A stretch of DNA of 34,073 nucleotides, from IMG/VR virus record IMGVR_UViG_3300047334_000042, positions 1-34,073 of that record; one strand, given 5' to 3'. This DNA is from a virus. The position numbers and the translations under genes are program-made. Below, piece after piece: positions 3,327 through 29,808 of the stretch (positions are counted from its first letter, which is position 1; the number at the start of each line of letters is the position of its first letter). A model generated the notes under the pieces. The model worked only from the letters and a program-made list of their open reading frames with translations. It searched no databases and was not told the DNA's origin.

Positions 3327-4099
3327 GGTAGATCGGTTGTCGTCACGGTGCCGGGTGTGTAGCCTGCTGTTACGTCCACGTAGCCCGGAGCCGCTGTGCC
3401 AGCAAGGTTGCTCCCACCCGTCACCTGGCCGGCCGACCCACCTACGGGCGTGCCTGTAACAGCATCCGGGCCAGACGTGGCGCCTGCCGTGGGTTGCCCG
3501 TTATTGAGCTTGGACATCAGGGTATTGAGCGACTGCGCGGCCTGCGCTTGCGTCACCAGCGGTTTGATGAAGTCAAACTGCCAAGTATTCTGCACTTGTG
3601 CGGACTCGCCGTTGCTGGTGTCCGTCAGCGTAAGCAAAATCAAGTTCTGGTAGATGTAGGCCGGTGTCGCAACCACGAACAAACCACCGAGATTGATGTG
3701 ATTGTCCAATATCTGCTTCAGTGCCATGAAAGTTATCAGCTTGGCCGTATAACCACCCGCCTGCCTCACAGGGCAGATCATCTGCATGGATAACTTCAAC
3801 GGCTGCGTAATCACCGCGTTAGCTGCTACCGCCTGGTTCGCAAACGGGTAGGAGCCGATTGTGTTGTCGACCAGTGTGCTACCAGGTAGCGGCCGGAAGT
3901 GCGCAAAGAAGTTGTCTAAGTTGACGTCGATCGTGCCGTTCAGCAGCGTCGCTACGAAGTTAGCCGCCTCCGTGATCGCCACAATAGGGAGCATCCCACC
4001 CGGTATGTTGGACGCGATTCCGCCCTGTAGAACAATCGGCGAGATTTCGAACCCAAGCCGGAAAATAACCCGGCCAATGGTGTTGAGGACATCACTCAC
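3323..4099 (-). CDS. Probable baseplate / tail-tube terminal protein, unknown family
   Basis: The 258-residue product starts at GTG 4099, which overlaps the tape-measure stop (GTGA). The first 190 residues look globular (SYPFANQAVAANAVITQPLK, YTAKLITFMALKQILDNH, YIYQNLILLTLTD, NTWQFDFIKPLVTQAQA). The last 60 are a low-complexity Gly/Thr/Ala tail (GTPVGGSAGQVTGGSNLAG). A protein of this size and composition follows the tape measure in phages with the same sheath type, where it is placed at the tube-baseplate junction. I cannot name a family with certainty. The flexible tail may be an interaction arm. No cysteine-rich or signal-like segment is present beyond a single Cys. Confidence 0.7.
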   Translation of the reverse strand: MSDVLNTIGRVIFRLGFEISPIVLQGGIASNIPGGMLPIVAITEAANFVATLLNGTIDVNLDNFFAHFRPLPGSTLVDNTIGSYPFANQAVAANAVITQPLKLSMQMICPVRQAGGYTAKLITFMALKQILDNHINLGGLFVVATPAYIYQNLILLTLTDTSNGESAQVQNTWQFDFIKPLVTQAQAAQSLNTLMSKLNNGQPTAGATSGPDAVTGTPVGGSAGQVTGGSNLAGTAAPGYVDVTAGYTPGTVTTTDLP

Positions 4100-6105
4100 C
4101 GTGGCACGCCGACAAGCTGGCTACCGGAGACAGCCACTTGAGCACCGGCTGGATTGTTGACGTCCACTTGCACCTTGACCGGGGCCTGCCCAGCAGACTT
4201 TGCGCTGGACGTTTGGCGAAAATCACCAATGCCACGCTGCGCATAGTCGATATAATGCTTGGTCTCGGCCGGCAGAAACTTGCGCCAATCCTTATGATGC
4301 GCGGCGATGTCCGCATCTATGTTACCGGGGCCGTCGTTGTAGGCCGCCAGCGCTTCAGTAACGTCGCCGTGGTAGTGTTTAATCAAATCCCGCAAGTAGT
4401 CCGCCGCCGCTGTCGCGCCCTCCTGCGGATCGAGCGACTGCCCGCCAGGGTAGTCTTTGGCTGTGTCATCCGTAAACTGGAAGTCGCCCTTGGCGCCAGC
4501 AGGTGACGTAGAGGGGTTGCGACCTTGATCTGATTCCAGTTTGTAGACGTTGGCCAGTAAGCCGGCCGGAAGATTTGCTCCGTATTCCTGAGCAAAGAAC
4601 TCGTCACGCCTGTCGGGGTCCGTTGCGGCATTATAGAACGGATCAGTGACTTTGCGGCCTTCCGCATCCACACCTGTCAGCTTGACGCCGGCCGCACGCG
4701 CAAGTCGCCGGTAGTCGTCCGCTGGTGTCGGAGGCGGTATCTCGAACCGTTCTTGATACCACTTCGGTGTAGCGGCCGGCACGTCATAGGGCGCTTGGTC
4801 CACGGACCGACCAGCAGGCACGGCAGCGGGATGTGCCGCATACCAAGCAGCAGGATCGTTTTGCGCTGCTGGCGGCACTACCTCGGGGTGTTGTGCATAC
4901 CAGCTAAGTTTCTCGCCGTTAACAACAGTGTTGGGATCGTCGCCCGGCCCCTCGCCGGGTGTTTGGTTGACGACCTTAACCGGACCGAACTTACCCTCGA
5001 TCCACGTCACTACGTTTTCGAGCATGTGCCACAGCTTTACCACGGCATCTTCGAAATGACCTAGATCAGCAGTAAAGCCGTTGGGATCATTTAGGTAGTC
5101 CGCAAAATGTTTGATGCCTGTAGCAAGGTCACCAATCCATTCTTTTATATGCGGGTTCGCCATCAGAGATTCGACAGCCTTAGTGAAAGCAACGGACAAC
5201 TGCGCCAGCGGCCCTTCAAGTGGAATCAAGCCTTCAATGAAGGTGCGCTCAATCCGCACGCCGGCGCGCTCCATTTGCACATCGAAGTCTTGCCAGGCTT
5301 TGGCGTCCTTCGGGGGTAGCGTCAGCGCCGCTTTATCCTGCTCGTAGTCTTGTTGGCTTTGGTTCAAGTCACCCGCAGCCAAACGGCGCAAATCCTCTTG
5401 CGAGAATAGTTGATCCAAACCGTGCGCTTGGACAAATTGCTGTGAGCGGTCACTGTTCAAATACATGCGCTTCGCGCGCGACATCACATCCGTGGCAAGG
5501 GTTGCTGGGTCTTCGTTGTTTAGTTCACCCTCACCGATACCAAGTGCTGAGAAAATCCAGCGCTTACTATAGTCCGACTTTGCGTCCGCGATGTTGGACA
5601 ACAAATGGTCGGTATCGAGATACCGACTATAATTGATCCGCATGGCGTCGGCCTCGCCAGTCGTAACCCCGACGCCTTGCGCGCTGCGTAGCTTGCTGCC
5701 AGCGGATTGTGCAAGACGATCAATGCCCCATATCCCGCCAGCACCTAGCAGACCACTGACCAGCTCCGTCACGGTCGCCCATTTCAGCAGGCTTTCCGTC
5801 GCTTCCTTAATGTGCCGGGCCACGTCCACCGTGCTACGCGCCAAGCTGGACATGCTGCGGCCGCTGCTCTCCGTGGCGCGGCTGAAGCCCTGCTGGTGCT
5901 CGGCCATCGTCTTCGTGTGCTGCTCGATAGCAGACAGCGCGTTCGCAATAGCGTCCAGATGCGTGCCGTGCTCGGACAAGGCCGTAGTAACGTCTTGCCA
6001 CTGTGCCGGCAGCTTTTCGACCGAGGCTTTGTATTCATCAAAGCGATTGACAAAGGATTTGAAATCCTCGTCTTGCACCTCAATCTGAAGGACGGATACT
6101 GCCAC
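4096..6105 (-). CDS. Tape measure protein with C-terminal lytic transglycosylase domain
   Basis: The 669-residue product starts at GTG 6105 behind an AGGGGA ribosome site. Residues 1-110 are helical with coiled-coil character. A hydrophobic Gly-rich stretch follows at 111-127 (TVTELVSGLLGAGGIWG), then helical spans to about 375 and a Pro/Ala-rich linker with two WYA(A/Q)HP motifs at 402-426. Residues 512-600 resemble a soluble lytic transglycosylase: VYKLESDQG with candidate catalytic Glu524, AKGDFQF at 539 and AYNDGPGNI at 588. The protein would set tail length and cut peptidoglycan during DNA entry. I found no cysteine in it. It follows the frameshifted tail chaperone, the standard order. 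Confidence 0.93.
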   Translation of the reverse strand: MAVSVLQIEVQDEDFKSFVNRFDEYKASVEKLPAQWQDVTTALSEHGTHLDAIANALSAIEQHTKTMAEHQQGFSRATESSGRSMSSLARSTVDVARHIKEATESLLKWATVTELVSGLLGAGGIWGIDRLAQSAGSKLRSAQGVGVTTGEADAMRINYSRYLDTDHLLSNIADAKSDYSKRWIFSALGIGEGELNNEDPATLATDVMSRAKRMYLNSDRSQQFVQAHGLDQLFSQEDLRRLAAGDLNQSQQDYEQDKAALTLPPKDAKAWQDFDVQMERAGVRIERTFIEGLIPLEGPLAQLSVAFTKAVESLMANPHIKEWIGDLATGIKHFADYLNDPNGFTADLGHFEDAVVKLWHMLENVVTWIEGKFGPVKVVNQTPGEGPGDDPNTVVNGEKLSWYAQHPEVVPPAAQNDPAAWYAAHPAAVPAGRSVDQAPYDVPAATPKWYQERFEIPPPTPADDYRRLARAAGVKLTGVDAEGRKVTDPFYNAATDPDRRDEFFAQEYGANLPAGLLANVYKLESDQGRNPSTSPAGAKGDFQFTDDTAKDYPGGQSLDPQEGATAAADYLRDLIKHYHGDVTEALAAYNDGPGNIDADIAAHHKDWRKFLPAETKHYIDYAQRGIGDFRQTSSAKSAGQAPVKVQVDVNNPAGAQVAVSGSQLVGVPR

Positions 6106-7367: not shown

Positions 7368-8687
7368 TTATGCCGTCGGGATGTCGGAGACTTGGACGTT
7401 AAAGAGAATGGACTCAAAGCCGCGACGGGGTGTGTAAATCACCGCCAGGCCATTGTAGACCCCATTCGGGTAGTCAGACTCATTGGTGAGCACATAAGCC
7501 GCGAACGGCACGGCGGTCACCGCCACTGGCGGCAACACCAGCCCGTAGGTCACGCCGCGATTCATCGTGCCTTGCGCGCGAGCTTGCAGGCGGTTGATGC
7601 CGTTCTGGTCGTAGTAGAGCGGCGCTTGCGGATTGTTGCTGCCGTTGATAATTTCGTTCGACAGATCCAAGTTCAGGTTGATCTGCACCCAATCGACAGA
7701 AAACCAGTAGTTGAACGGGTTGCCGTCCATCGTGGTGCCCCACAGCACCATTGTATTGCTGATCCCACCCTCAGCACCAGTGCCGACCCAATTTACGAAT
7801 GCGGCTTTCCACGTCGCAAACAGGGCTGCGTTACCCTTGGTCGGGTAGGGGGTCACGCCATACAGGAACGCAAACGCGTTTGGTGTGACCATGTTGGTCG
7901 TCGAAGGGTTGTAGTTGATTGTGACATACATAAAAGCAGCGGCGCTGAACTCGGTTGCCGGTATGCCAGGTGCCTCGATTACGGCATACACGCATTTCAT
8001 CAGATTGGTGAAGTTCGTGTATGCGCCCGGACCAGTATTTGTCGCTGTAACGAAGAAGTAAGTCATCGCCTCCGGGTTCTCGTAGCTGGCCAAGAACGAG
8101 AGGAACGAGGACGCGGCGGCCCACGCACGCGGGACAAGAAACGAGTAGATGGTTTGCGGGTTGGCCACGATGTAGGTGTTCAACGCCGTAATGGCGTCGA
8201 TGGTGTCGATGGCTCCCAGCTCGAGAACCAGCACGGACGCGGTTGTGCCTTGTGCAAACCACGTCGTCGCCATCGCCACCAGTTCAGCCGCTTCCTCCAC
8301 GGCCACGCTGCCGAAGATGGTCGCGGTGCCAGGGTTGCTTGCCAGCGGGTAGGTGAAGGCCGTTGTGGTTGTGATCGTTGCCAGAAACGTGCCGTTGTAG
8401 CCGGCCGGGGTAGCGCCGGTGATGGTTAGTGAGACGACCTCACCGATGGTGTAGCCGTGCGGCACGGTCGCGGTCGCGGTCACAACGCTACTGGCCCAAA
8501 CCAGATTGGACAGCGTCTTTGCCGTTGCCAGCAGCGGTGTGAGATCGGCGTATTGCGTGAGCAGCCCGGTGTTGCCGGCCCCTAGCGTAGTGCCGCCAAG
8601 CGAGATCAGCGCGCCCGTGCGCTGTAGGGTGCTCGCAGCCGGCGCGACGGTCTGGCTGACGGCAACTTGGACAATCGCGTTCGACAT
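7368..8687 (-). CDS. Contractile tail sheath protein (DUF3383-like)
   Basis: The 439-residue product starts at ATG 8687 with a strong GGGAGGG site five bases upstream. The opening (MSNAIVQVAVSQTVAPAAST, then TGALISLGGT and LTQYADLTPLL) and the body (SFLSFLASYENPEAMTYFFV, AFLYGVTPYPTKGNAAL, QARAQGTMNRGVTYGLVLPP) match DUF3383-type sheath proteins as I recall them. It forms the contracting outer layer of the tail. Residues about 62-130 hold an extra Ig-like module also found in the head protein at 18278-19126. The C-terminal part ends in the strand-rich region RRGFESILFNVQVSDIPTA. Only one cysteine was seen. Confidence 0.92.
   Translation of the reverse strand: MSNAIVQVAVSQTVAPAASTLQRTGALISLGGTTLGAGNTGLLTQYADLTPLLATAKTLSNLVWASSVVTATATVPHGYTIGEVVSLTITGATPAGYNGTFLATITTTTAFTYPLASNPGTATIFGSVAVEEAAELVAMATTWFAQGTTASVLVLELGAIDTIDAITALNTYIVANPQTIYSFLVPRAWAAASSFLSFLASYENPEAMTYFFVTATNTGPGAYTNFTNLMKCVYAVIEAPGIPATEFSAAAFMYVTINYNPSTTNMVTPNAFAFLYGVTPYPTKGNAALFATWKAAFVNWVGTGAEGGISNTMVLWGTTMDGNPFNYWFSVDWVQINLNLDLSNEIINGSNNPQAPLYYDQNGINRLQARAQGTMNRGVTYGLVLPPVAVTAVPFAAYVLTNESDYPNGVYNGLAVIYTPRRGFESILFNVQVSDIPTA
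8298..8504 (-). repeat. Ig-like module shared with head protein (sheath copy)
   Basis: Residues 62-130 of the sheath contain VVTATATVPHGYTIGEVVSL, then GATPAGYNGTFLATI, FTYPLASNPG and a closing G-x-V. The head protein has the same series of motifs (PHGY or AHGY, YNG, PLAS-x-PG) in the same order and spacing. It is a protein-level repeat, not a DNA-level copy. Confidence 0.75.
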
Positions 8688-8710: not shown

Positions 8711-9067
8711 TTAGCGGTAAGCCACGCTCAGCACTTGGCCGGTGCCGGGAACAACAGTGATACCGTTCTGGCACGGCCAGTCCACGGCATAGAGTCCGAC
8801 CGTGTTGGGGATCGTCATGATGGTATTGTTGGCTGTGACCGCGCCCACGGTCTTGCAATCATTGGCCGTGCCGGCTGTGGAGCCGGCCGTAATAACTGAA
8901 ATCTTCGCAAGGCGGCCGGCTGTGCCTTTGATCACCGTCGAGGTTGTCACGTTGTTATTCGACAGACTGGACGAGCCGGTGATGAGCGCGCCCGTCAGCG
9001 GGTCAACTTGTAGCGGCACGGCGCTGTTGCCGTTGTTTGCGACGTAGTTTAGCGGACCTTGGGCCAT
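8711..9067 (-). CDS. Small structural protein upstream of sheath, unknown function
   Basis: I chose the second of two consecutive ATGs (9067), since it lies five bases after AGGAGG while the first lies only two; the product has 118 residues. It is beta-rich: PLQVDPLTGALITGSSSLS, then STVIKGTAGRLAKISVITAG and NDCKTVGAVTANNTIMTIPN, ending GTGQVLSVAY. Similar V-I-K-x-x-x-G-R-L-x-x-(V/I)-x-V-x-x-x-G proteins occur in phage structural clusters and are usually listed as hypothetical or decoration-like. It lies between fibre cassette 2 and the sheath gene and has its own strong ribosome site. It has no signal peptide and two cysteines. Confidence 0.72.
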   Translation of the reverse strand: MAQGPLNYVANNGNSAVPLQVDPLTGALITGSSSLSNNNVTTSTVIKGTAGRLAKISVITAGSTAGTANDCKTVGAVTANNTIMTIPNTVGLYAVDWPCQNGITVVPGTGQVLSVAYR

Positions 9068-9128
9068 CATAGCCTCCTGTTAGTTAGAGATTGGAACCAG
9101 CAATCAACGGGTCGCTTACAGCAACCAA
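9068..9128. other. Short intergenic gap after fibre cassette 2
   Basis: These 61 bases hold the AGGAGG site of the downstream 118-residue gene. I see no inverted repeat with a U-run and no convincing promoter boxes. It marks the 3' border of the inserted fibre cassette. Confidence 0.4.
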
Positions 9129-12100
9129 TTACTCTATTTCCACAATAATCGGATCATCGCCCAGCGTCACTGTGACCGAAGCCCCGCTTGAGAACGTCTG
9201 TGTTGGGTTGCTGCCCGTGATTGGATCATAAACGTTGACTGCGGCAGCGGTCGGCAGGGTCACGGTGACGCTATGTGACCCGAGCGAAATCTCCTGGCCG
9301 GTTGCCGGATTCCATGACGTGCCGTCCTGCCAGAGCAGGAGGTCGTAGACACCGCCCGGTTGCTCCAGCAGGAGCGAATATGCGTCGGACGGCATCCCGC
9401 TCAGCGTGTAGGCCAACGTGCCGGGCACTTGCAACACGCCGCCAGCCGGGTTGCGCTCCAAAATCGTCGTCAAGTTTTGCAACGCTGTAGCGGCCACCTT
9501 TGGAATAACAGTAGACGTGCCGTTGTTCTGGAAGAGTCCAAAGTAGTTATTGAAATTGGTCGATGCCGGGATAACCGGCGGATAGTCTTGCAGGTTGTAG
9601 AGATAGGTCCGCGCGACGGTCTGTATCGGTGCGTCAAACAGGAACCGCAAATCGTAGCGGGCTTGCGTGGTCTGGTCGACACCCAGCGTATAGTTCGTCG
9701 GAATGGTGGACAGGCCGGCCTCAGTCACCCAGCCGGGCTTCGTATCCGCAAGCACTTCGTAGAGCAGGCAATAGGACAGCGTAGCAGCGGCCGACGACGT
9801 GTTGCTGGCGTAGCAGTGCCGATCGTCGATGTCGGCAAGAGGCCCGACCTGGAATCCATTCGAGTTGACGCCGACGCCCAGCGTGAACGTGGCGACAGGT
9901 AGCACCGTCGTAGGAAGTGTGGGGCAGAACACTCCGGGGACGCAATTCCCGTCGCTCTTGATGGCCGAGTAGAGCGCGGTCTGATACGCGACCGCGCCAG
10001 CGCCGCTCGCGATGCCGACTCCGTTGTAGCTGTCCGGCGACGGGCCGAGAATAACCTCGTTCTCGCCGCCAATCGCTTCCACTACTCCGGCAGTCACCGG
10101 ATCGACGTAGGTCGTCACCCACGACGCTTCGCTACCTGCGCCCGTCGGCGGGATATTGCAGAAGCAATAGGCTTGCATCTCCAGCACCTTGGCGATGGTC
10201 GCCGAGTAGGCGCTGATTTGCGCGGCCGTCTGGCCGGTCACACCGGCTTGCAATCGGACGTGTTTGATCCCCGTGTAGGCCAGCAGCGGGCCGTCCGTTG
10301 CGGCAATGCCTGATCCGTTCACACCGATACTGTCCACGAACGTCGAAGCCAGTTCGGCCTGTTGCTCGCCCTGCGTAGCGGGCGGCCAATCGCCCGCCTG
10401 GTTCGCGAGAGACGTAAACTCCGGGCTGATGGCCGGCAGCACCTGACTCCCGCCGACGTTGTTATAGGCCCCCGTTCCGAGAACCGTCGTGCCTGAGCCG
10501 GTAGCGATGTTCGTCACTGTCAGCGGCGCTGGCGATATGGAGTCCGTGTAGGCAACCGATTCCGTGCAGACGCCAGGCACTTGCAGCGCGAATTTAATCT
10601 GACCAAACCCCGCCGACGTGCCTTCGCGCTGCGATACGGCCCCCATCGGATTGCCGGCGATCAAGAGCTGATTGCTTTGCATGGCGTTTGCCATCTGACC
10701 TGTGACGGCCACGATACCGCTGGACGAGATCGGCGGCAGATCGACAGCTTGGACAGTGTAGTGCGTCACCTGCGGGCTGTTCGAGGCGGTCGGCGAGGTC
10801 TGCGTGAAAGTGATGACTTCGCCGAGAACGGGGGTGCCTTGCAGTTTGACGGTGCCGCACGTAGCCGAGACGGACAGATATGATCCGTTTATGGTCGGGT
10901 TGCCGACACACCCCGGCGCAGGCCCGCACTGAGGGTTAGGCGAGACGAATTTGTTGTCTATGTAGAACGCGGCGGTCTGGCCGCCAACAGGGCTGCCAGC
11001 AGCGTCACCTGTGCCGATCTTAAAGCCCTGGACGGAAGATCCGTCGCATACGTTACCGACGACGTGCGCGTATATGTTCGCGCCACCGACGACGTTGCAG
11101 TAGTTTCGCGAGAGGTAGTAGGTTCCAACGTCCCAGTAGGGACCGGAGACGCCGTTGTTCGCGGCGCCGCCACCCGATCCGTTACCGTTCGTGCCGCCGT
11201 TGTAAGCCAGCGGCGAGGACACCCCTAGCGAGTCTGTTATCGTAGCGGTGGCGACGCAGGCGAGATTGCCAGGGAGCCTCCACTCGAAAGCGTGCGTGTA
11301 GGTGGTCGCGTGCCCGGCATACCATGCGTAGGTTTGCAGCGACACGCCGTTCACCACGATAGGCGAGGCGTTCACCACCGCCGCCATGTTCGCCATGACG
11401 GAGCGCAGCGGATCGGCCGCCGCGATGTCGCCAGATGTCACGGTGTAGGTCGGATATGTCTGTACGGAAGCGCCCGCTGGCCGGGACAGGCTGAGCGCGA
11501 GCGTCAATTGTTGCCCGAGCTGCGGCGTGCCGGCAATGCCGATCGTGTAGCAGGTCGGCACGGTGCTGCTGTTGTTCGTGTAGTCCTGGAAGGTCGTGCC
11601 GTTGGCGGTGTACTGCGGCGGTGTGGAGTTCGTCCGCGCCGAGCGCAGTATGTCACCGCCGAGAATAGACGAGTTCGCGACGGTGCCGTTCAGAGTGCTC
11701 GGCTGCAATCCGAGCATGTCGTAGTATATGAACGACGAACCGTAAGTCGCGTAGCGAGATGCGTCCGTGAACACGTCCCACAGAACAGAGTAGCCGTTCG
11801 GCGCCGGCATACCGCCGACTTTGAGCGCGCCCAGCGCCGAGAACCAGCTCGTCTGCCCTATGCTGTGAACGACACCGCAGTCCTGACCCGTGAGGTAGTA
11901 GTGCGACGCGCCTACATTCTCACTATCTAAGTGGTCCATCGTCACGCCGCCGACGGCGACAACCGATCCGGTGCCGTTCGGGCCGCTCCAGATAGTGCCG
12001 TTGGCGTTTTCGCAGACTACGCCGTGGCCGCCGGTCGTGAGACCGGGGGTGTTGGTAGCAGCGACGTTGGAGTAGTTGCCATTCGTCGTTAGGTATCCAA

Positions 12101-12512
12101 CATAGGCGTTGTTCCCGATCATGTCGATCAGGTCGAACGGGTTCGCCAGCAGCGCCGTTGTGTCGGCGTTCAGGCTTGATGTCGGCCCGGTATTCGCCGT
12201 GATCATCTGCGCGGACGGAAAGAGGCGTAGCTGCGTCTCCCTGGCCTGCCCGACAGCGTCAGGCGTCGCCAAGTGGACAGGTCCGTCACCGAACAACACG
12301 GTGCCGTCGTTCGGCACTGTGATCGCGCCCGTCATGTCGCACTGAGAAACGGCCGTTCGGATATGGACGTAGCCGCCTATTCCGGGCGGAACGGCGGCGG
12401 TAAGCTGGTTGATGGCGGCCACGTCGGCCGGCGTGCCCGTGCAGCTATAGGTCGCGGCGCGCGCGTGGCCGCAACACAGCAGCGCCAGCAAGAGTGCGAG
12501 AATGCGCGTCAT
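9129..12512 (-). CDS. Exported tailspike-like protein with beta-helix and clan GH-A-like glycosidase domain
   Basis: The 1127-residue product starts at ATG 12512, overlapping the fibre gene stop (ATGA). Residues 1-20 form a signal peptide (MTRILALLLALLCCGHARA, cut at ARA). Residues 21-540 are beta-rich with repeated G-N and Y-N turns, like a beta-helix; 545-670 is another beta domain. Residues 720-975 look like a TIM-barrel glycosidase: IGGENEV with candidate acid/base Glu819, DDRHCY at 896-901, and GWVTEAG with candidate nucleophile Glu931. The 112-residue spacing suits clan GH-A enzymes. The end (about 1030-1127) resembles their C-terminal beta sandwich. The mature part has 18 cysteines. 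It probably cuts a host surface polysaccharide; the substrate is unknown. Confidence 0.8.
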   Translation of the reverse strand: MTRILALLLALLCCGHARAATYSCTGTPADVAAINQLTAAVPPGIGGYVHIRTAVSQCDMTGAITVPNDGTVLFGDGPVHLATPDAVGQARETQLRLFPSAQMITANTGPTSSLNADTTALLANPFDLIDMIGNNAYVGYLTTNGNYSNVAATNTPGLTTGGHGVVCENANGTIWSGPNGTGSVVAVGGVTMDHLDSENVGASHYYLTGQDCGVVHSIGQTSWFSALGALKVGGMPAPNGYSVLWDVFTDASRYATYGSSFIYYDMLGLQPSTLNGTVANSSILGGDILRSARTNSTPPQYTANGTTFQDYTNNSSTVPTCYTIGIAGTPQLGQQLTLALSLSRPAGASVQTYPTYTVTSGDIAAADPLRSVMANMAAVVNASPIVVNGVSLQTYAWYAGHATTYTHAFEWRLPGNLACVATATITDSLGVSSPLAYNGGTNGNGSGGGAANNGVSGPYWDVGTYYLSRNYCNVVGGANIYAHVVGNVCDGSSVQGFKIGTGDAAGSPVGGQTAAFYIDNKFVSPNPQCGPAPGCVGNPTINGSYLSVSATCGTVKLQGTPVLGEVITFTQTSPTASNSPQVTHYTVQAVDLPPISSSGIVAVTGQMANAMQSNQLLIAGNPMGAVSQREGTSAGFGQIKFALQVPGVCTESVAYTDSISPAPLTVTNIATGSGTTVLGTGAYNNVGGSQVLPAISPEFTSLANQAGDWPPATQGEQQAELASTFVDSIGVNGSGIAATDGPLLAYTGIKHVRLQAGVTGQTAAQISAYSATIAKVLEMQAYCFCNIPPTGAGSEASWVTTYVDPVTAGVVEAIGGENEVILGPSPDSYNGVGIASGAGAVAYQTALYSAIKSDGNCVPGVFCPTLPTTVLPVATFTLGVGVNSNGFQVGPLADIDDRHCYASNTSSAAATLSYCLLYEVLADTKPGWVTEAGLSTIPTNYTLGVDQTTQARYDLRFLFDAPIQTVARTYLYNLQDYPPVIPASTNFNNYFGLFQNNGTSTVIPKVAATALQNLTTILERNPAGGVLQVPGTLAYTLSGMPSDAYSLLLEQPGGVYDLLLWQDGTSWNPATGQEISLGSHSVTVTLPTAAAVNVYDPITGSNPTQTFSSGASVTVTLGDDPIIVEIE

Positions 12513-14029
12513 TTAATGACACGCACGTTGTAGGCCGAGGCGGTTGGAGTGCCTGCCACGTCGGCGCACACCTGCACCGTCACGGTGTTGCTGGAAGACA
12601 CGTAATCGCGCCCCCAATCGAAGCCGGCGCCGGGGTATGTAACGGGCGTTGCCGATACAACCATGCCAGTAGTCGCTCCGGTCACGGCGACTGTGCCGCT
12701 CGCGCAAGAGCCGAGCGTAAGAGAGCTTCCGCCTATGCTACCTGTTGTGCCGGTCAGCAACGGGGGATTGGTCGCAACGAAAGCTGTGGTCGCGATCTTG
12801 GTTGAGTTGTCACCCAGCGTCGGTGTCGGTGCGGTTGGTGTGCCAGTGAATGCAGGTGAGGCTAATGGTGCAGCTCCTGTAATACGTGAGTCGTTGCCGG
12901 CCGCCGCAGTCGATCCCGTCGTTCCAAGCTGCACATTCAAGTTGCCCGCGCTCAGCGCAAGCGCCGTGCCCGCGCTGACGGATATCCACGCCCCGTTCAC
13001 ATCTGTTCCCAAGAGTGACGCTGAAACCGGCGTATTCGGCACGAGGTTCGCGGTCGGCGTCCAGTTGCCGTTCGTGGTCGGCCGAAACATCTCGGTCCAG
13101 TTGCCGAGCAGCGTCACGCCCGCGCCAGCAGTCCCACCAGAGATCGTGTCGGTCCCGTTGTTGTAGGGGTAGACGGTGATCGTCGAGTTTACCATGCTGA
13201 CCACGATGGCCGGAATGCCCTGCGCGACTGCGGCCGGCAGACACACACCGCCTCCACCGCCGCCGGTTATCACCGTCAACTCGGCCGTAAGCTGGAAACA
13301 GGTCGCCTGATTAGTGCCTGCGGCTGTCTGCGCGAGCTGGCGCGCCGGGTAAGGGTCGAAAGCGTTCGTCGCGCACGCGATGATGTTGCTATTGCTGTCG
13401 GTGCCACCACACGGCAGATTCGGCGGCGACGTGACGACACCAGGTATCGTGGCGCTGGCCTGCCCGATCTGGTTTATCGAGCCGTAGAGCGCGTCGACGG
13501 CCGTGTATTCGGCCTGTGCCGCGATCAAGCCAGCGTTCACGGCGGCAAGGTCGGCAGCCATCTGGGTCGAAGCGTTGGCGATACTCGCGACGATAGCTGG
13601 CGACGGGAGGCCAATGTCGGTGGTCCGCTGCCAGCCCCCGGCCGTGTAGCGCACACACTCGTCTGCGTTAGCGTTCAGAAACATAGGAGGATCGCTGATA
13701 GACGACCCCGACGTCAGCGTGAGCGTCGTGATCGCGTAGGGTGCAAGCAAGCAGAACGGATCACCGTTCTTCGGGGTGGGCGGCAGCGCGACAGTCAGTA
13801 AGGCGAGTGTTCCAGTAATAGGCAAGTACTGGTTATAGACGCCAGTCTTCTCCGTGACGGTCGATCCGCTAGTCGGAGGTGACGCCGTGGTGGCGTATCC
13901 CGTGCTGCCGAAATTGACTATGGCTACACAGCCATTGCACACGGTCTGCGCCTTTGCTGCCTGGCCAAAGCCAAACCCCGCCAGGGCCAGCAAAACAAGC
14001 AGGAAAACAGCAAGCAAACTACGCCGCAC
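12509..14029 (-). CDS. Tail fibre-like protein with N-terminal signal peptide
   Basis: The 506-residue product starts at ATG 14029. Residues 1-28 are a classic signal peptide (MRRSLLAVFLLVLLALAGFG, cut near AKA-QT). Residues 150-210 form an Ala-rich helical segment. The region GGVCLPAAVAQ to ITVYPYNN (about 260-300) is a fibre module also seen in the genes at 14019 and 27334. TGAAPLASPAFTGTPTAPTP, then DNSTKIATTAFVA (about 395-430), is the phage tail-fibre repeat found in many host-recognition fibres. The mature protein has 10 cysteines. Fibre identity is clear; the signal peptide is odd for a virion protein. It is translationally coupled to the following glycosidase-like gene, so the two may work together. 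Confidence 0.82.
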   Translation of the reverse strand: MRRSLLAVFLLVLLALAGFGFGQAAKAQTVCNGCVAIVNFGSTGYATTASPPTSGSTVTEKTGVYNQYLPITGTLALLTVALPPTPKNGDPFCLLAPYAITTLTLTSGSSISDPPMFLNANADECVRYTAGGWQRTTDIGLPSPAIVASIANASTQMAADLAAVNAGLIAAQAEYTAVDALYGSINQIGQASATIPGVVTSPPNLPCGGTDSNSNIIACATNAFDPYPARQLAQTAAGTNQATCFQLTAELTVITGGGGGGVCLPAAVAQGIPAIVVSMVNSTITVYPYNNGTDTISGGTAGAGVTLLGNWTEMFRPTTNGNWTPTANLVPNTPVSASLLGTDVNGAWISVSAGTALALSAGNLNVQLGTTGSTAAAGNDSRITGAAPLASPAFTGTPTAPTPTLGDNSTKIATTAFVATNPPLLTGTTGSIGGSSLTLGSCASGTVAVTGATTGMVVSATPVTYPGAGFDWGRDYVSSSNTVTVQVCADVAGTPTASAYNVRVIK

Positions 14030-14525
14030 AGCTCACCCCGCTGCTGATACCAATCACGCGCTGATACGTCCCATAGGGCGCGTTTGGTGTGATTGGAATC
14101 GGTTGGTCTGTTGTAAAGCCCGGAAACGCGGACCCGGCGTATGGGTAGATATTGATTGTGTTGCCGGTCAGATTGACGACCAAGTGTTCAACCCCAAGCT
14201 CATTGATCCGGACACCTGTATTCGCCGCACCCGCAACAATAATTGTTGTCATTGCAACCAGCAGGTAAGCGGTGCCGGAGGTGCTGCCGACCGCCGTGAC
14301 GGTTGGGTCCAAGGAAGTAACCAGCAGCCCAGTTGTGATAGGGTTGTGCGCTGGTAGTGCGGCCTCCGCTACAGCCAGGGCGGAATCTGCTGCGGATAGC
14401 GCGGACGAAGCGTTTGTGGATGCGGTGTTGGCCGTATTCTGTGCGACAGCAGCAGCAGTCGCTACGACTGCAATCGCGGACAGCACGTCCTCGGCCGTAG
14501 CGGGTTGTCCGGCAGCGATGGTCAT
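14019..14525 (-). CDS. Short fibre-like protein without signal peptide
   Basis: I chose ATG 14525, which overlaps the upstream stop (ATGA) and has GGGAG nine bases ahead, over a GTG six bases earlier with poor spacing; this gives 168 residues. Residues 10-60 are Ala/Ser/Thr-rich and helical (AQNTANTASTNASSALSAAD), as in trimeric fibre stalks. The remainder is the beta module shared with two other fibre genes (HLVVNLTGNTINIYPYAGS). Lacking a signal peptide and having one cysteine, it differs from its exported neighbours. It could be the cytoplasmically assembled adaptor to which they attach; this is inference. It overlaps the next gene by 11 bases. Confidence 0.72.
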   Translation of the reverse strand: MTIAAGQPATAEDVLSAIAVVATAAAVAQNTANTASTNASSALSAADSALAVAEAALPAHNPITTGLLVTSLDPTVTAVGSTSGTAYLLVAMTTIIVAGAANTGVRINELGVEHLVVNLTGNTINIYPYAGSAFPGFTTDQPIPITPNAPYGTYQRVIGISSGVSCAA

Positions 14526-15652
14526 TGCCACAAGCTCCCGTCATCCCAGTTAAACTCGTCCCACACAGCGTTACCGCTTGGGAGTGGTGGGGTGGGCGGA
14601 ATCGGCGGCACCCAAATCGTCCCGGAATAGGTGAGGAACTCAATCGTCGGGATGGCCTTGAGAATAAGCTGACGTGCAATATCATTGACGCGCGTTTGGT
14701 AGTAATTGATTTCAAACTCAACCACTTTGCGTTGCGCCAGCACGCCTAGCTCGATCTGTAGCCGCTTCTCGTCGCGCATCACCGGCATATTCATTATGCC
14801 AAACGCGTCGGAGTCCAGCGTGTATTGGTTGACGTAGTCCAAGAAATCGAGCGCCTGATCATTACGCAGCCCATAGAATGTGATCTTGACGCGCTCGCAC
14901 ACTAGCTGCGTATGCGTCGTAGTGTAGCGATCAAACGTCGGAGCGGCCTGCAAAGCGTGTTGTGATTCAGGAATAACATGGATCGCAGCGTAGGGTGGGC
15001 TGATGTTGTCCGGCACAAGAAACGACGGATACAGCGGCACCACTTGCGTCTTGCGGTAGGGATACTGCGGCATCATCGGGTTCAATGCCAACCACAACGG
15101 CAGACTGTTGGACACCACTTGCAGACCGTTGAAGGACACCACATCGTCAATAATCTGTGTATTCATTGTTGGATACACAGCGTTGCCGACGTAGTGATAG
15201 AGTTGTGCCTGCTCGTAGAAGTTCCCGCGTTCCGCAAATGCAAAGCGCAACCCGTTGAAGGCGCCAAGATACATGATGTTCGGTGACACTTCATTAAGGT
15301 CTTGGATTTCGGACTCGGACGTGAAAGTCACACGGTTTACCGCGTAGCTTTCCTCCTCACTGACCTCGCTGACGCTGCTGTAGTGTAGGGAACCCGCTAC
15401 CGTTATCGTAGGCGCACCCACGCTGACGGTCGGTGTGCTGGCCAGCAGCGCGTTACCAAAACCCATCGCACCGATCAGCGCTTGGTAGCTTACCAATTCA
15501 GCGCGCACCCAAAAGACAAACCCGTCCAGCGGTAGCACGAGCCTGACATACTTGGTGAAAGTAACCGTCTGCTGTGCGTCAATGGTCTCCAAGCCAGCGC
15601 GTAGGGTGCTGCCAAGCTGGGATTCACCAGTAACGGATTCAGCAATCGTCAC
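14522..15652 (-). CDS. Virion structural protein of unknown function with Pro/Trp-rich tail
   Basis: The 376-residue product starts at GTG 15652, overlapping the upstream stop (GTGA). The main body alternates strands and aromatic residues (TFTKYVRLVLPLDGFVFWVR, RVKITFYGLRNDQALDFLDY, ELGVLAQRKVVEFEINYYQT) and looks like a globular structural protein. The last 30 residues are a Pro linker (VPPIPPTPPLPSG) followed by a Trp/Asp peptide (AVWDEFNWDDGSLWQ). I do not recognise a named family. Its position among connector genes, before the fibre cassette, suggests a neck or tail-completion part or a fibre attachment protein. The Trp-rich end would suit a docking peptide. Confidence 0.72.
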   Translation of the reverse strand: MTIAESVTGESQLGSTLRAGLETIDAQQTVTFTKYVRLVLPLDGFVFWVRAELVSYQALIGAMGFGNALLASTPTVSVGAPTITVAGSLHYSSVSEVSEEESYAVNRVTFTSESEIQDLNEVSPNIMYLGAFNGLRFAFAERGNFYEQAQLYHYVGNAVYPTMNTQIIDDVVSFNGLQVVSNSLPLWLALNPMMPQYPYRKTQVVPLYPSFLVPDNISPPYAAIHVIPESQHALQAAPTFDRYTTTHTQLVCERVKITFYGLRNDQALDFLDYVNQYTLDSDAFGIMNMPVMRDEKRLQIELGVLAQRKVVEFEINYYQTRVNDIARQLILKAIPTIEFLTYSGTIWVPPIPPTPPLPSGNAVWDEFNWDDGSLWQ

Positions 15653-16164
15653 TTTTTATCAGACCATGCAACAAAGCTGGATTGATAAAGTCCCGTATCA
15701 ATAAAGGACGGGCGCGGAGCCCCGCGCTTCTGCTTCATCCGGTGATTGACACCTAGGAGTGAGGCCCTAGTCGGGATGCCGGGATAACCCAGCGCATCCA
15801 TGCCGCGCATGGATAGGAACTGTTTAAAGCTGGCCTGTAGCGTGGACAGCGACCCGGCTAGTGGATCGACCAGCGGACCACCCATTGCGTGTGTCTCAAA
15901 CGCTTGCGCAAAACCCTCGGCAAAGCTGGCCGCAAGCTGCTTCTCATGGAGCTCGTAGTAGATTTCCATAATGTGGTATTTGTTCTCAAGCCAGACCGCC
16001 ACGTCGCCTGTTGAGACGCTGCGGCCAACTTTACGTTTCCGCTTCTTCCTAGCTTGACGCAGCTTGCCGGGTTTCACCTTGCGCGGCTTGGCCTCGGGGG
16101 TCTCATACTGCGTGTATGGAATGTCATAAACCCCAAGATGCAGGACAATCACGTCAAGCCCCAT
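15649..16164 (-). CDS. Probable tail-completion / neck protein
   Basis: The frame is open from 16257, but ATG 16164 is the likelier start, giving 171 residues; GTG 16152 overlaps the upstream stop as GTGA with GGGG six bases ahead and is equally possible. After about 20 residues comes a very basic stretch (PRKVKPGKLRQARKKRKRKV), then helices (WLENKYHIMEIYYELHEKQL) and a C-terminal region RPSFIDTGLYQSSFVAW. The last motif is found in small proteins of the head-tail junction in related phages, where similar proteins act in tail completion. The Lys/Arg stretch could contact DNA or the negatively charged connector. The identification is tentative. Confidence 0.65.
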   Translation of the reverse strand: MGLDVIVLHLGVYDIPYTQYETPEAKPRKVKPGKLRQARKKRKRKVGRSVSTGDVAVWLENKYHIMEIYYELHEKQLAASFAEGFAQAFETHAMGGPLVDPLAGSLSTLQASFKQFLSMRGMDALGYPGIPTRASLLGVNHRMKQKRGAPRPSFIDTGLYQSSFVAWSDKK

Positions 16165-18277: not shown

Positions 18278-19126
18278 TTATAGCAGGATGAGTGCAGCGG
18301 TGCCGTTCGGCGTCCAATGCACCAAATTGTTGACAGCGTCGTAGGATACCACCTTGCTGTTGCCCACCTGAACCATCAGCACACGCACGGGCAGCGCACC
18401 ACCGCCCGCAAGCACCTGACCCTGCGTCGTCACAGCGCCCGGCGTGCTGGCCAGCGGTAGCAGATAGACCAACGTGCTGCCCGTCGTGCCGGCAATGAGC
18501 GTCACGTCGCCGTTGTAGGCCGTGGGCACAACACCACTGATCGTCACGACATTGCCGGCCACGTAGCCGTGCGCCGTGGTCGTGGTCGCGGTGACGGTGC
18601 CACCGTTTGTATTGGCCCACGACATCGCGGTGATGACATTGGCCGCTTCGACTGGCGCGTAGGGGATCAACTGCTGAGCGTTGAAGTCCCACGAGACCTG
18701 CTGCGTGACCAGTCCGCCCTCGAGGGACACTAGGGATGGCGCGCACGCCACGGCCAAGCGCGCATTACTGCCGAATCGATAGAATGGCACCGTCATGCTG
18801 ACGCCGGCAGACGGGCACTCGGACTGCGGCGAGCTGATCCAGGCGTGGGCCTGGTTGAATGTGCTGAACCCCGTCAGGTTGGCCAGCGTGGTTGCTCGCT
18901 GCAATGACGGACCAAGACCCGTCAAATTGTTGTTGAACGGAATGTCTTCCTGGATGCCGACACCGCCCCACATCGGCAGGGTTTCTGTTAGCGCCAGGAT
19001 GCCACCCGCGAGCTGGTAGCGCGCGGCCGGATCATCCATCACCGCGCCTTGGACAAGGCCGTCCGTGGTCGCAAGAAATAGCCCTGCTGCGCTGTTCGTC
19101 AGCATGGGGTTGAAAGAGAACGTCAT
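18278..19126 (-). CDS. Head surface / decoration-like structural protein with Ig-like module
   Basis: The 282-residue product starts at ATG 19126 with AGGAGG eight bases ahead (inside the end of the previous gene). Residues 1-160 begin MTFSFNPMLTNSAAGLF and include LPMWGGVGIQEDIPF. Structural genes of this size lie between the scaffold and capsid genes in related phages. Residues 164-238 hold an Ig-like module (VTATTTTAHGYVAGN, PTAYNGDVTLI, LLPLASTPG) also present in the sheath. The C-terminal end is beta-rich (VRVLMVQVGNSKVVSYD). A role as a capsid-associated surface protein is plausible from position and the module. The exact family is not certain. Confidence 0.75.
   Translation of the reverse strand: MTFSFNPMLTNSAAGLFLATTDGLVQGAVMDDPAARYQLAGGILALTETLPMWGGVGIQEDIPFNNNLTGLGPSLQRATTLANLTGFSTFNQAHAWISSPQSECPSAGVSMTVPFYRFGSNARLAVACAPSLVSLEGGLVTQQVSWDFNAQQLIPYAPVEAANVITAMSWANTNGGTVTATTTTAHGYVAGNVVTISGVVPTAYNGDVTLIAGTTGSTLVYLLPLASTPGAVTTQGQVLAGGGALPVRVLMVQVGNSKVVSYDAVNNLVHWTPNGTAALILL
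18413..18637 (-). repeat. Ig-like module shared with sheath (head protein copy)
   Basis: Residues 164-238 show the motif series HGY, YNG and PLAS-x-PG in the same order as sheath residues 62-130. Such modules are commonly found as surface-exposed insertions on phage structural proteins. Confidence 0.72.
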
Positions 19127-19129
19127 GGG

Positions 19130-19969
19130 TTATGCCTCCTGGCTGACGCGGCGCAGTCGGGCGCCCATTGGGTCCATTTTGAATGGAGCCCAGCACGCCT
19201 CCGGGCTGCCGACGAACTCCGTGATGGCCCGGCCGGAACCATCCCGACGCGTGATGGCCCGCAGCGTATTGGCCGGCAAGTCGGTTGGGTTCAGCGCCGC
19301 TGCTTGCGCGTCCGCATAAACCTGGCTTTCGACCACACCGAAGTGACCTTCGTCGACGATCTTGGACAGGTCGATGTCCTTCCAAGTCGTGCTGTGCTTC
19401 TGAAACGCCGAGAGCTGGCGCTTGCGATAAGCAAACGGAGTCTCACCCGCCAGCGGCCGGGGGGCGGACGAACCAAACAGCTGAGCGACGCTGTCAGCGC
19501 GTGCCTGGATCTCGGCCATCTTGTTGTAGTCCTCATCAGACAGCACCTTGGGCATGTTGCGCTCGAGCGCTGCCAGGCGCGCCGCCGTGTCGGCCGCATC
19601 CTTGCGCGCCTTGTCCTCGCGCTCCTTCTCCTCGGCGTCCTTGCGCGACTTGTCCTCGCGCTCCTTCTCCTCGGCGTCCTTGCGCGACTTGTCCTCGCGC
19701 TCCTTCTCCTCGGCGTCCTTGCGCGACTTGTCGGCTACCGGCTGTTCCGGCTCGCCCTTAACCTTCTTTTCCTCAGCGTCCTTTTTGAATTGGTCTTCCA
19801 TCGCATCCAAACGCGACACTGTGTCCGCCATGAACTTGTCCATGCGCGACATGCACGCATCGAGCCGGGTGGCGCGTTCCTCCGCATCCTTGCGCGCCTT
19901 GTCCTCGCGCTCCTTCTCCTCGGCGTCCTTGCGGGCGGCGTCAGCACGGTCCTTGTCTTCTTCAGGCAT
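19130..19969 (-). CDS. Probable nested scaffold product from internal start
   Basis: Inside the fusion gene, an in-frame ATG at 19969 (codon 311, MPEEDKDRADAARK) has GGAGG at 19979-19975 with a five-base spacer. This is among the best ribosome sites in the window and lies exactly at the border between the protease-like part and the coiled coil. Translation from here would give a 279-residue scaffold without protease or NUDIX domains. Phage lambda C/Nu3 and other phages make scaffold this way from an internal start in the protease gene. The site is seen directly; its use is inferred. Confidence 0.7.
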   Translation of the reverse strand: MPEEDKDRADAARKDAEEKEREDKARKDAEERATRLDACMSRMDKFMADTVSRLDAMEDQFKKDAEEKKVKGEPEQPVADKSRKDAEEKEREDKSRKDAEEKEREDKSRKDAEEKEREDKARKDAADTAARLAALERNMPKVLSDEDYNKMAEIQARADSVAQLFGSSAPRPLAGETPFAYRKRQLSAFQKHSTTWKDIDLSKIVDEGHFGVVESQVYADAQAAALNPTDLPANTLRAITRRDGSGRAITEFVGSPEACWAPFKMDPMGARLRRVSQEA

Positions 19970-20899
19970 GGTAGCCTCCACAGCAGTTGATGAAAGGACG
20001 CCTTGTGGCGCGCCGCCCTTATCCCAAACACCTAATTCACAGATCGCCACATGGTCAACCAAGCTAGGCGTGCCCTCGATCAGCACCGTGCCGCCGTCAT
20101 CCAGAGTAGAGTCGTCATTGGCCAACGGTCGGAAGTAAGTCAAACTGGAACCCAGCAGCACACCGGGCGACGTGGACAGCACTTCGCTGCCCATCATTGT
20201 AATTGCGTCTTTGTCGAAAACCTTCGCAATACCCCACACTTCATTATCATTAATGTAGGGTAGGAAGATTGTGCCAACAATACGCTTGCTGAACTCGTCA
20301 CTGTCCAGCAGCGGCTTCTCAGGATGATCCCACAGGACCGGCAACCCGTTGCAGCGCGCTAGAAAACGCTCGTTCAGGTAGAGTGTAGGGTCGCGCCAAG
20401 TGTATTCGTTATTCTTGACGCGGTAGGCCGCACCCGTGCCTGTAATGCGCAGCGCAAACAGGGCGACGTTCTGGTAAATCTGTGGCGACACCAGATCACC
20501 GGACGAGATCATTCGCGCGATGTCGAGTTCGTCAGCGGTCAGCTTTGCCAATGCTACCGCACACCCCGGATGAAGTGGTTCCGGAGGCGCTTGTGGGTCC
20601 GCCCACATGAAACCCGTATGCTCGTCGTTAAGCACGGGATTGAATTTGTCGCATAGCTGGACGAATGTTGTGTAATCAACACCGTCCTTTACGCGCCGGC
20701 ATAGTAGCTTGCGCGCACCTGTAGGGCAAGTGCCGAGCTCCTCTTTACACTCGCGGACAGCCGCTTGCTCAGCAGTCTCGCCAGCCTCCATCTTACCGCC
20801 AGGCGCGCCCCACGCGCCGGGTGCGTCACCTTGGTCGCTGCGCTGTAACAGCAGCACTTGCCCATCAGCGATAAAGAGAATACCGGCAGCTTGGATCAC
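19130..20899 (-). CDS. Fusion of NUDIX hydrolase, DUF2213-like head protease and coiled-coil scaffold
   Basis: The 589-residue product starts at GTG 20899, overlapping the upstream stop (GTGA). Residues 1-120 are a NUDIX domain; G35 to G56 match the Nudix box G-x5-E-x7-R-E-x2-E-E-x-G exactly, with E53 and E54 as metal ligands. Residues 140-300 resemble DUF2213, a presumed head maturation protease: GLPVLWDHP with candidate His192, GSSLTYFRP (candidate Ser251 or Ser252) and DHVAICELG. Residues 311-445 are a charged coiled coil with repeats of 13 residues (RKDAEEKEREDKS). Residues 446-589 are a globular C-terminal part. The neighbours (capsid and portal) fit a scaffold/protease role. NUDIX may hydrolyse a nucleoside diphosphate compound; the substrate is unknown. 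Confidence 0.85.
   Translation of the reverse strand: MIQAAGILFIADGQVLLLQRSDQGDAPGAWGAPGGKMEAGETAEQAAVRECKEELGTCPTGARKLLCRRVKDGVDYTTFVQLCDKFNPVLNDEHTGFMWADPQAPPEPLHPGCAVALAKLTADELDIARMISSGDLVSPQIYQNVALFALRITGTGAAYRVKNNEYTWRDPTLYLNERFLARCNGLPVLWDHPEKPLLDSDEFSKRIVGTIFLPYINDNEVWGIAKVFDKDAITMMGSEVLSTSPGVLLGSSLTYFRPLANDDSTLDDGGTVLIEGTPSLVDHVAICELGVWDKGGAPQGVLSSTAVEATMPEEDKDRADAARKDAEEKEREDKARKDAEERATRLDACMSRMDKFMADTVSRLDAMEDQFKKDAEEKKVKGEPEQPVADKSRKDAEEKEREDKSRKDAEEKEREDKSRKDAEEKEREDKARKDAADTAARLAALERNMPKVLSDEDYNKMAEIQARADSVAQLFGSSAPRPLAGETPFAYRKRQLSAFQKHSTTWKDIDLSKIVDEGHFGVVESQVYADAQAAALNPTDLPANTLRAITRRDGSGRAITEFVGSPEACWAPFKMDPMGARLRRVSQEA
19601..19732 (-). repeat. Tandem 39-base repeat encoding charged coiled-coil units
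   Basis: Three near-identical 39-base units begin at 19601, 19640 and 19679, followed by a partial fourth to about 19732; another single copy lies at 19889-19927. Each encodes RKDAEEKERED plus two residues. The repeats are in frame with the scaffold part, so unit number can change without breaking the gene. Confidence 0.92.
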
Positions 20900-26500: not shown

Positions 26501-26923
26501 GGTTGCGAGCGAGACGGCTTTGATGCCGTTGCCCGCGACGTTGCCCAGCAGATAGCTCGGCAGGGTCACGCCGGACGGCAGCGTGATGACTGCCTGCGCG
26601 GTGCCGTTGGTGGTCACGCTGACGGTGCCCGCAGCGTAGACATAGGCCGCAGTGATGCCGAGGCTGGGCGAGCCGCTCGTTGTTTCGGTTGAGGACGGGT
26701 CCGACTGCGCGTTGGCGGCGATGGTCGGGCCGCCGAACGTGGCGGAGTCGAGCGGCGTCAACACGGTCGGCACCGCGCCCAGCGTCACCCGCCCAGCCGC
26801 GCCCGAGGCGACGAGGCCCGGCACCGTCTGGGTGGCGACTCCCGGCGCAGGCGCGGGCAGCGGCCCGCCAAACGCCGGAGGGGCACACACCAAGACTGTG
26901 GCGGCGAGGATCCATGCGCGCAT
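23522..26923 (-). CDS. Large exported protein with SGNH-esterase-like domain and beta-rich ends
   Basis: The 1133-residue product starts at ATG 26923 behind AGGGG. Residues 1-19 form a signal peptide (MRAWILAATVLVCAPPAFG). Residues 25-345 are beta-rich. Residues 350-385 (GTDDSAALISLFSYAVNSGY, then FPQGV) recall the start of pectate-lyase-like domains. Residues 453-690 resemble an SGNH hydrolase: VVVDATGDSM with candidate nucleophile Ser462, VNNRCIGATT (block II, Gly507), and PDVLTIRFSND (block III, Asn564). The usual D-x-x-H is not clear; GGHIG (His652) is a candidate, with Ser at the Asp position. The mature part has 18 cysteines. It may deacetylate a surface polysaccharide. The two features, esterase fold and export, are inferences. 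Confidence 0.72.
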   Translation of the reverse strand: MRAWILAATVLVCAPPAFGGPLPAPAPGVATQTVPGLVASGAAGRVTLGAVPTVLTPLDSATFGGPTIAANAQSDPSSTETTSGSPSLGITAAYVYAAGTVSVTTNGTAQAVITLPSGVTLPSYLLGNVAGNGIKAVSLATGTTWSNNPIVTAITGTGPYTVTLNPAPSSSGTFTSGLAFLPSTGGSVFGSYSNSSTPFTASQDNAENTMELNFCSTSGNLLTCPAGAFNATYLYSDTTAGDGSSIQITIHDPTGTNADFTTTVLSATSSVATLAAAPPYTLSNANAVQLSFGPMVFTPAMVGQTCDIGNIGAAGAELIAAISGYTDPFHVTLASNAGVTRHQTPNELRCGTDDSAALISLFSYAVNSGYSEVTFPQGVKPFWVTPSAAAVANVLLCNDGSVNGGRIVYPIGSQFLRNAARCTPPFARQAIPVTLNRNENYRQAVSKALAGGPVVVDATGDSMCSPSSNHLAFFGSLSKVIEESYKTANAGSPLGFPGITVNNRCIGATTMSELDPAGPVIGAASGVPPTNLTSISQWYTNQGSQWISYIKADCPDVLTIRFSNDLVNLNVSAWWNVIAYTQTAAWRTTCGSNPDIIINSAAFNPQGNTSNASYAQQENMLFISRWEASMVESGDYYNPQSNTWGTLASGGHIGLLDTGRTDILYQTGVDIERGPLRRADEVEGMGANYTTGAIATPPFQWPVPVMGWELGFQTKSVAGSASTFWSNLGGYLIMGIGNGAYGTPVGIGGQTSTMLTGYPGNELVEGTNGTDYTVGGYLYNFTSSGTCSITSGQTSLVCSASLANQGHSYGQISIPGAGSAACPWMIAASTNCLNTTIGKPGVSTNPVSADGKTLTLSDPATATLSSAAVTVAIYHSFYPITDTGIPVVLATNGSYLTNLTFAGVLGTHGYVLTTNGVLTTGQPAFDGNVETFGGHYQPLITSAQTGVGSALFSFYLDSNTQRSEATQFTGTQPLLPPMETGYEAFGSCQQGGQNGTGPYGGACVAHASHLSIKAYEDTYNANSAQMEFSAPSFASAPRIVTSGATQAVQLSDSELDFNYGAATAVAVSMPAQPMLRHRYAFADIGGTAAGGTAFTIAAPSGGTINGAASVTLNTAHQSLSVSCSTPTVCSTVQ

Positions 26924-26926
26924 GAT

Positions 26927-29601: not shown

Positions 29602-29743
29602 TGTCTTTGCTTGCTTCGGTCTGGTTGGTTTGCTGCTCTACGCAGCGGCGCGCGTAGCATGGGCGCTACTGCGCTTAGCAGTCTACCTAATACCAATCTT
29701 CTGTGTGGGTATGGCGCTATGGGCGCTAGTGCTGGCCCTGTAG
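29585..29743 (+). CDS. Small plus-strand membrane protein (two segments)
   Basis: This is the only gene on the plus strand that I support. ATG 29585 has GGAG seven bases upstream and the frame ends at TAG 29741-29743, for 52 residues. The product is almost wholly hydrophobic, with membrane segments at about 2-20 and 31-51 separated by ARVAWALLRLA. It starts in the overlap with the 5' end of the tailspike gene and is antisense to about 17 of its bases. A GAGAATTCTC palindrome (29575-29584) covers the ribosome site. A short, two-segment protein could be holin-like or an exclusion protein, but no motif confirms this. It may also be a chance frame. Confidence 0.5.
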   Translation: MFWLFIVFACFGLVGLLLYAAARVAWALLRLAVYLIPIFCVGMALWALVLAL

Positions 29744-29748
29744 CATAG

Positions 29749-29785: not shown

Positions 29786-29808
29786 AGGGGCGGGGCTGGG
29801 GGTGTAGT

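Follow-up and report, generated by a model that had tools for sequence, protein, structure and literature searches.

A PslG-like clan GH-A glycosidase domain on a putatively exported protein in the structural operon of a Certevirus-like phage

The window analysed here is a 34-kb viral contig (34,073 nt) from a soil-type, Certevirus-like myovirus. One of its genes, located in the structural operon, encodes a 1127-aa protein whose C-terminal part, residues ~720-1127, is strongly supported as a genuine clan GH-A glycosidase. Our favoured reading is that the gene product is probably a phage-made polysaccharide hydrolase with a PslG-like GH-A module, exported by the Sec pathway and probably disulfide-bonded.

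The gene and the insert that carries it

As shown in Table 1, the gene lies on the minus strand, where 9129-12512 is an open frame with an ATG start. The plus strand contains stop codons throughout the same interval. The open reading frame reported in the initial annotation is real, and its strand is the minus strand. The start codon of the gene overlaps the stop codon of the upstream fibre-like gene in an ATGA sequence.

Pantoea phage PdC23 (Certevirus) and Klebsiella phage RothD share with the window the order of the genes for terminase, portal, capsid, gp11, sheath, tube, tape-measure and baseplate proteins, with identities of about 30-58%. In PdC23 and RothD, gaps of just 20-90 bases separate gp11 from the sheath gene and the terminase gene from the portal gene. 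The window has inserts instead: four genes including the glycosidase gene at 8711-14531, and eight ORFs at 23522-31973. The gp11-sheath site is also occupied by other genes in L088, L094, L097 and L117, which are fibre-like in L097 and L117. The start of the 170-aa protein of the window is identical to these two fibre genes at 10/14 residues (E 0.1). The fibre gene at this site in L117 (L117:13087-15732) has a weak match to PhoD-like / purple acid phosphatases (E 5e-4), and its product is possibly a further enzyme-bearing fibre. The gp11-sheath site apparently serves for the insertion of surface-acting modules.

Table 1. Features of the glycosidase gene and of the insert between the gp11 and sheath genes.
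Feature	Position	Strand	Basis or remark
gp11 homologue, left insert border	14522..15652	-	43% identical to PdC23 gp11
Fibre-adaptor-like protein, 170 aa, beginning MTIAAGQPATAEDV...	14019..14531	-	start resembles same-site fibre genes in L117/L097
Signal-peptide protein with tail-fibre repeats, 506 aa, upstream	12509..14029	-	PHROG 4209 tail fibre, E 1e-10
Whole gene: signal peptide and C-terminal PslG-like clan GH-A domain, 1127 aa	9129..12512	-	
Sec-type signal peptide, residues 1-20, cleavage between MTRILALLLALLCCGHARA and A	12453..12512	-	sequence; crude h-region/(-3,-1) rule
Orphan N-terminal region, residues 20-320	11553..12455	-	without homologue; model pLDDT 33
Internal repeat copy 1, residues ~320-453	11154..11555	-	BLASTP, copy 1 vs copy 2
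Internal repeat copy 2, residues ~551-685	10458..10862	-	BLASTP, copy 1 vs copy 2
(β/α)8 barrel, clan GH-A catalytic domain, residues ~722-1018	9459..10349	-	alignment, profile, model, Foldseek, VIA-align
Glu819 codon, predicted acid/base after invariant Asn818, just past β4	10056..10058	-	invariant in 35 homologues; model
Glu931 codon, predicted nucleophile on β7, aligned with PslG Glu276	9720..9722	-	alignment, profile, model
C-terminal β-sandwich, residues ~1032-1127	9132..9419	-	model strands; PslG superposition up to residue 442
119-aa protein closing the insert, adjoining the tail sheath	8711..9070	-	
Tail sheath, right insert border	7368..8687	-	PHROG 205, E 1e-31; homologue of PdC23 gp12 and RothD

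The second insert, between the terminase and portal genes, contains three signal-peptide proteins on the minus strand (23522-26923, 26927-27349 and 27334-29601) with 18, 2 and 12 cysteines. The 1133-aa protein of this insert has an SGNH-like GDSM motif and no Pfam match. The first two of the three signal-peptide proteins are found at the same place in L063, whose capsid is 100% identical. Elsewhere in the operon, the gp05 homologue (18278-19126, minus strand) and the tail sheath (7368-8687, minus strand) have in common a domain of ~75 residues, which is also found in RothD and PdC23. The ORF at 19130-20899 (minus strand), in the head-morphogenesis region, encodes a long charged-repeat protein to which a NUDIX-like N-terminus is fused, and this arrangement is conserved in PdC23 gp04.

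The catalytic domain

The initial annotation had proposed two catalytic glutamates in the C-terminal part of the protein. Both are present as described, Glu819 within ...AIGGENEV... and Glu931 within ...GWVTEAG..., 112 residues apart, and DIDDRHCY is located between them. Homologues of the GH-A domain were found by tblastn on plasmids of Roseomonas, Rhizobium, Sinorhizobium and Granulicella (E down to 1e-24), and a BLAST scan of genomes gave 48 loci with domain homologues (E down to 3e-44). Since the homologues reach these E values, the similarity of the Glu819/Glu931 region is beyond chance. In the 35-sequence alignment, Arg753 (the β2 Arg), Asn818, Glu819, Asp894, His899, Tyr901, Glu931 and Gly933 are among the invariant residues. 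The motif reads Gly-Gly-Glu-Asn-Glu in the window protein but Glu-Gly-Pro-Asn-Glu, or nearly so, in almost every homologue, a deviation from which changes around the active site may follow.

The whole protein had no match in Pfam (E up to 1), NCBIfam or PHROGs, and the GH-A domain alone matched no Pfam family at 0.1, the GH39 model (PF01229) included. The score does not place the domain in Pfam GH39, and the likeness of the domain to PslG appears only by profile and fold. A phmmer search of the PDB returned only an antibody chain, which was rejected as a chance match; PslG is too distant for pairwise sequence detection. The PDB profile search with the 35-sequence alignment gave PslG as the best match (E 6.5e-10), followed by GH39, GH17, GH30 and GH2 enzymes. 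In the profile alignment, residue 250 of the 416-residue PslG chain is matched by the TE of the family. The solved part comprises residues 31-442, so that, provided the chain carries four additional N-terminal residues, this TE corresponds to PslG Glu276. Glu165 and Glu276 are the catalytic residues of PslG (PMC7237758). The Glu165 region is outside the profile alignment, and its correspondence is implied by the fold match alone.

The AlphaFold model of the C-terminal domain consists of a (β/α)8 barrel and a β-sandwich (pLDDT 81, pTM 0.87). The TIM-barrel arrangement anticipated from the order of the motifs is present in the model, and so is the β-sandwich-like end, as strands at residues ~1032-1126. 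Asn818-Glu819 come directly after model strand 112-116, at the C-terminal end of β4, and Glu931 is inside model strand 228-234, at the C-terminal end of β7. The Foldseek search with the model gave PslG as the top match (6e-18). VIA-align superposed the domain on PslG with a Z of 27.9 over 352 residues at 19% identity, followed by GH39 (25.5) and by GH79 and GH30 (about 22). The top VIA matches belong to the clan GH-A families GH39, GH79, GH30, GH51 and GH17, and many GH-A families occur in the Foldseek and VIA listings. The nearest solved relative of the domain is PslG. The annotation of a C-terminal clan GH-A-like glycosidase is borne out by homology, the invariant catalytic residues, the predicted (β/α)8 barrel and the PslG match. 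From alignment and model, Glu931 is the predicted nucleophile and Glu819 the predicted acid/base of a retaining mechanism.

PslG of Pseudomonas aeruginosa (PDB 5bx9, 4zn2, 9g17) has the same barrel and C-terminal β-sandwich as the phage domain, and the spacing of its two glutamates is 111 residues compared with 112 in the phage. It is a bacterial Psl exopolysaccharide hydrolase, which cuts biofilm sugars. The phage protein differs from it by 700 extra N-terminal residues and by six cysteines in the catalytic domain.

Export signals and the N-terminal region

Signal peptides were called by a crude home-made rule based on n-, h- and c-regions and a (-3,-1) cleavage site. In the loci of the capsid relatives the rule is positive for 35/1260 ORFs. 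The 1127-aa protein has the n-, h- and c-regions of a signal peptide by this rule, with the cleavage site given in Table 1. Signal-peptide-like starts were found in 5/12 ORFs of the two cassettes and, as credible cases, in 0/21 core ORFs (Fisher p 0.003, with the puncturing-protein homologue counted as negative). That homologue, with the start MQDQLQLTGK..., was the sole rule-positive core ORF and was set aside as a false positive that is not signal-peptide-like.

The five mature cassette proteins have 18, 10, 18, 2 and 12 cysteines, all even numbers, and a cysteine content of 1.6-2.1% compared with 0.9% pooled over the other ORFs. The mature 1127-aa protein has 18 cysteines, six of which are in the GH-A domain and are missing at the same columns in all 34 homologues. 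Among the phage homologues described below, L007 and L009 have a signal peptide and 1.5-1.7% cysteine, and L011 and L012 have neither. Mature L007 has 9 cysteines, an odd number. The signal peptide and the cysteine pattern fit real export into an oxidising compartment; the odd count of L007 does not. Export of the 1127-aa protein is supported, indirectly, by its signal peptide and its even cysteine count. PslG also has a predicted signal peptide (PMC7237758).

Residues 20-700 contain a duplicated unit of ~135 residues (BLASTP of copy 1 against copy 2: E 1e-6, 25% identity), and have no detectable homologue in Pfam, PHROG, profile, viral and genome searches. A scan of viral sequences gave no homologue, either for residues 20-320 or for the protein as a whole. 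One weak match of the N-terminal region among 299 genomes of one family (E 7.7e-4, L143) was rejected as chance, because it is beside a shikimate-dehydrogenase-like ORF and was not reproduced by BLAST. A single-sequence model of residues 20-719 had a pLDDT of 33.5 and was unusable, and the profile search gave no match. The start of residues 20-320 reads like a pectin-lyase-type β-helix cap, a resemblance that is unproven. No virion-docking or trimerisation domain was recognised by Pfam, PHROG or profile searches. The initial annotation had described a tailspike with the glycosidase after a β-helix. The glycosidase half of this description stands, but the tailspike and β-helix half does not go beyond a proposal, given the missing homologues and a model pLDDT of 33.

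Relatives and probable function

The family of the domain is alphaproteobacterial and secreted, with members in Rhizobiales, Acetobacteraceae and other Alphaproteobacteria, and it has no Pfam model. It was present in 28/299 genomes of one tested family. Members such as Roseomonas WP_265548342 and Rhizobium WP_252755441 ('glycosyl hydrolase') are homologous to the phage domain over the whole barrel and sandwich, at 23-34% identity in the 35-sequence alignment. Unlike the phage protein, many of them have the enzyme right at the start and other C-terminal extensions behind it, and most have no cysteines in the domain. Some cellular relatives have xylan-binding CBM60 or ricin-type lectin modules. 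Several relatives lie in polysaccharide loci. Their neighbours are a sugar transferase, PAP2 and a glycosyltransferase in one case, type I secretion, an epimerase and GDP-mannose dehydratase in another, and GT87, GT4 and O-antigen ligase in a third; others adjoin a pyruvyl transferase and GT4, and a flippase. The remaining neighbourhoods looked at are not of the polysaccharide type, so that a location beside exopolysaccharide genes is a tendency of the family, not a rule. This location in several members is a further likeness to PslG. The gene for PslG is located in the psl cluster (cf. PMC9075953). We infer that the substrate of the phage domain is likely a bacterial exopolysaccharide.

The GH-A domain has representatives in five or more environmental viral lineages, this phage included, and two of the four others have signal peptides. 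The L007/L008 homologue has a signal peptide and DUF4082, and the L009 homologue has a signal peptide and lies between the portal and capsid genes. The L010/L011 homologue has 1619 aa with GH39-like, fn3 and GH16 parts and is beside baseplate J, L011 being signal-less. The L012 homologue is signal-less and has a CBM60. By fold, one more phage homologue is present in BFVD (A0A6J5RG31). No match was found by tblastn among 50,697 GenBank phage records, whether the query was the full protein, the isolated domain or a relative, and none of the loci of 80 capsid relatives, many of them partial, carries this domain. In the best tree the viral copies are scattered, with strongly supported branches that force at least two changes, and the window protein is on a long branch (1.71). 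The AU test did not reject one viral clade (p 0.107). Independent capture of the viral copies is suggested. The 1619-aa product of L011:3504-8363 is a multi-glycosidase tail protein, with GH39-like, fn3, GH16 and PslG-like domains in one chain; a second GH16+fn3 protein (L011:1303-3504) precedes it and baseplate J comes after it. L012 has, near its GH-A gene, a related pair of proteins (14353-15834 and 3345-4190; HYSPNGNFANG.../HYSANGNFANG...) with no Pfam match.

The place in the particle operon, the export signal and the PslG-like enzyme fit together best if the product is a polysaccharide hydrolase that is carried out of the cytoplasm and set free at lysis. The protein would be expressed late together with the particle genes, directed by its signal peptide into the periplasm and folded there with its 18 cysteines paired. 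At lysis the enzyme, free or loosely attached, would reach the cell surface, the matrix or released virions. The C-terminal module should then cleave a β-linked exopolysaccharide, located in the host envelope or biofilm, through a retaining double-displacement mechanism, with Glu931 as nucleophile and Glu819 as acid/base, and the polysaccharide barrier would be opened. Against this reading, lysis would free even a cytoplasmic enzyme, which leaves the need for export in doubt, and the neighbouring signal-peptide fibre-like protein looks like a virion part. TspA of the Rhodobacter capsulatus GTA is a detachable, biofilm-degrading tailspike loosely held on the particle (PMC13420450). It resembles the phage glycosidase in its alphaproteobacterial, phage-derived context (PMC13420450) and is a precedent for a releasable enzyme. 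As a close relative it was rejected, being a right-handed β-helix trimer without a TIM barrel.

A less probable but serious alternative is a virion-attached tailspike depolymerase, in which residues 20-700 would be a trimerising, tail-docking β-helix or stalk, the hydrophobic start a non-working signal peptide, and the GH-A domain would strip exopolysaccharide during adsorption. The gene follows immediately on a fibre-like gene inside the structural operon, and L097 and L117 have fibre-like genes at the same site, the latter with its PhoD-like match. In another phage the signal-less 1619-aa homologue with GH39-like, GH16 and this GH-A domain is directly before baseplate J. Acinetobacter phage tailspikes, e.g. 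of vB_AbaP_46-62_Aci07, have TIM-barrel (transglycosidase-domain) regions with polysaccharide depolymerase activity (PMC11823257), and the Aci07 tailspike was matched by the fold search (E 1e-6). They belong to another sequence family than the phage glycosidase, and the relevant passages of that report mention no export signal. TIM-barrel phage depolymerases are already known, so the earlier remark that a TIM-barrel enzyme after a β-helix on an exported protein is less usual is fair but needs this qualification. The signal peptide, the even number of cysteines, the want of a recognised docking or trimerisation domain and the signal peptides of the L007 and L009 homologues argue against the tailspike. 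With the signal peptide, a classic spike assembled in the cytoplasm is only one of two live options.

It is improbable that the protein is an auxiliary enzyme whose digestion of environmental (plant or soil) polysaccharide, instead of the host envelope, would feed the infected host or free the virions. The CBM60 or lectin modules of some cellular relatives and the CBM60 of one phage homologue would suit such a role, but the structural operon location, the relatives in exopolysaccharide biosynthesis loci and the position of PslG, no plant-fibre enzyme, as nearest solved relative do not. Least probable is a catalytically dead glycosidase retained as a carbohydrate-binding receptor module, to which the long branch and the Gly-Gly-Glu in place of Glu-Gly-Pro before Asn-Glu would point, since every invariant position is kept, including both catalytic Glu, Asn818, His899, Tyr901 and Arg753.

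As an exported, PslG-like exopolysaccharide hydrolase, the protein would be an addition to the phage depolymerase repertoire, and specific residues are now on hand for testing. The data raise the question why the fibre-like and enzyme genes of a tailed phage should have signal peptides and paired cysteines. In a more tentative reading, the two cassettes of the head-tail operon might encode large fibre-like and enzymatic products that are Sec-exported, disulfide-bonded in the periplasm and, once lysis has occurred, become attached to the particles or work alongside them. If true, the maturation of virion accessories or of free enzymes that degrade the envelope would take place outside the cytoplasm. 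A fibre-like protein of 778 aa with a signal peptide and 10 cysteines is encoded between the portal and capsid genes of another relative (L074:4227-6563), so that the export pattern may extend beyond this phage.
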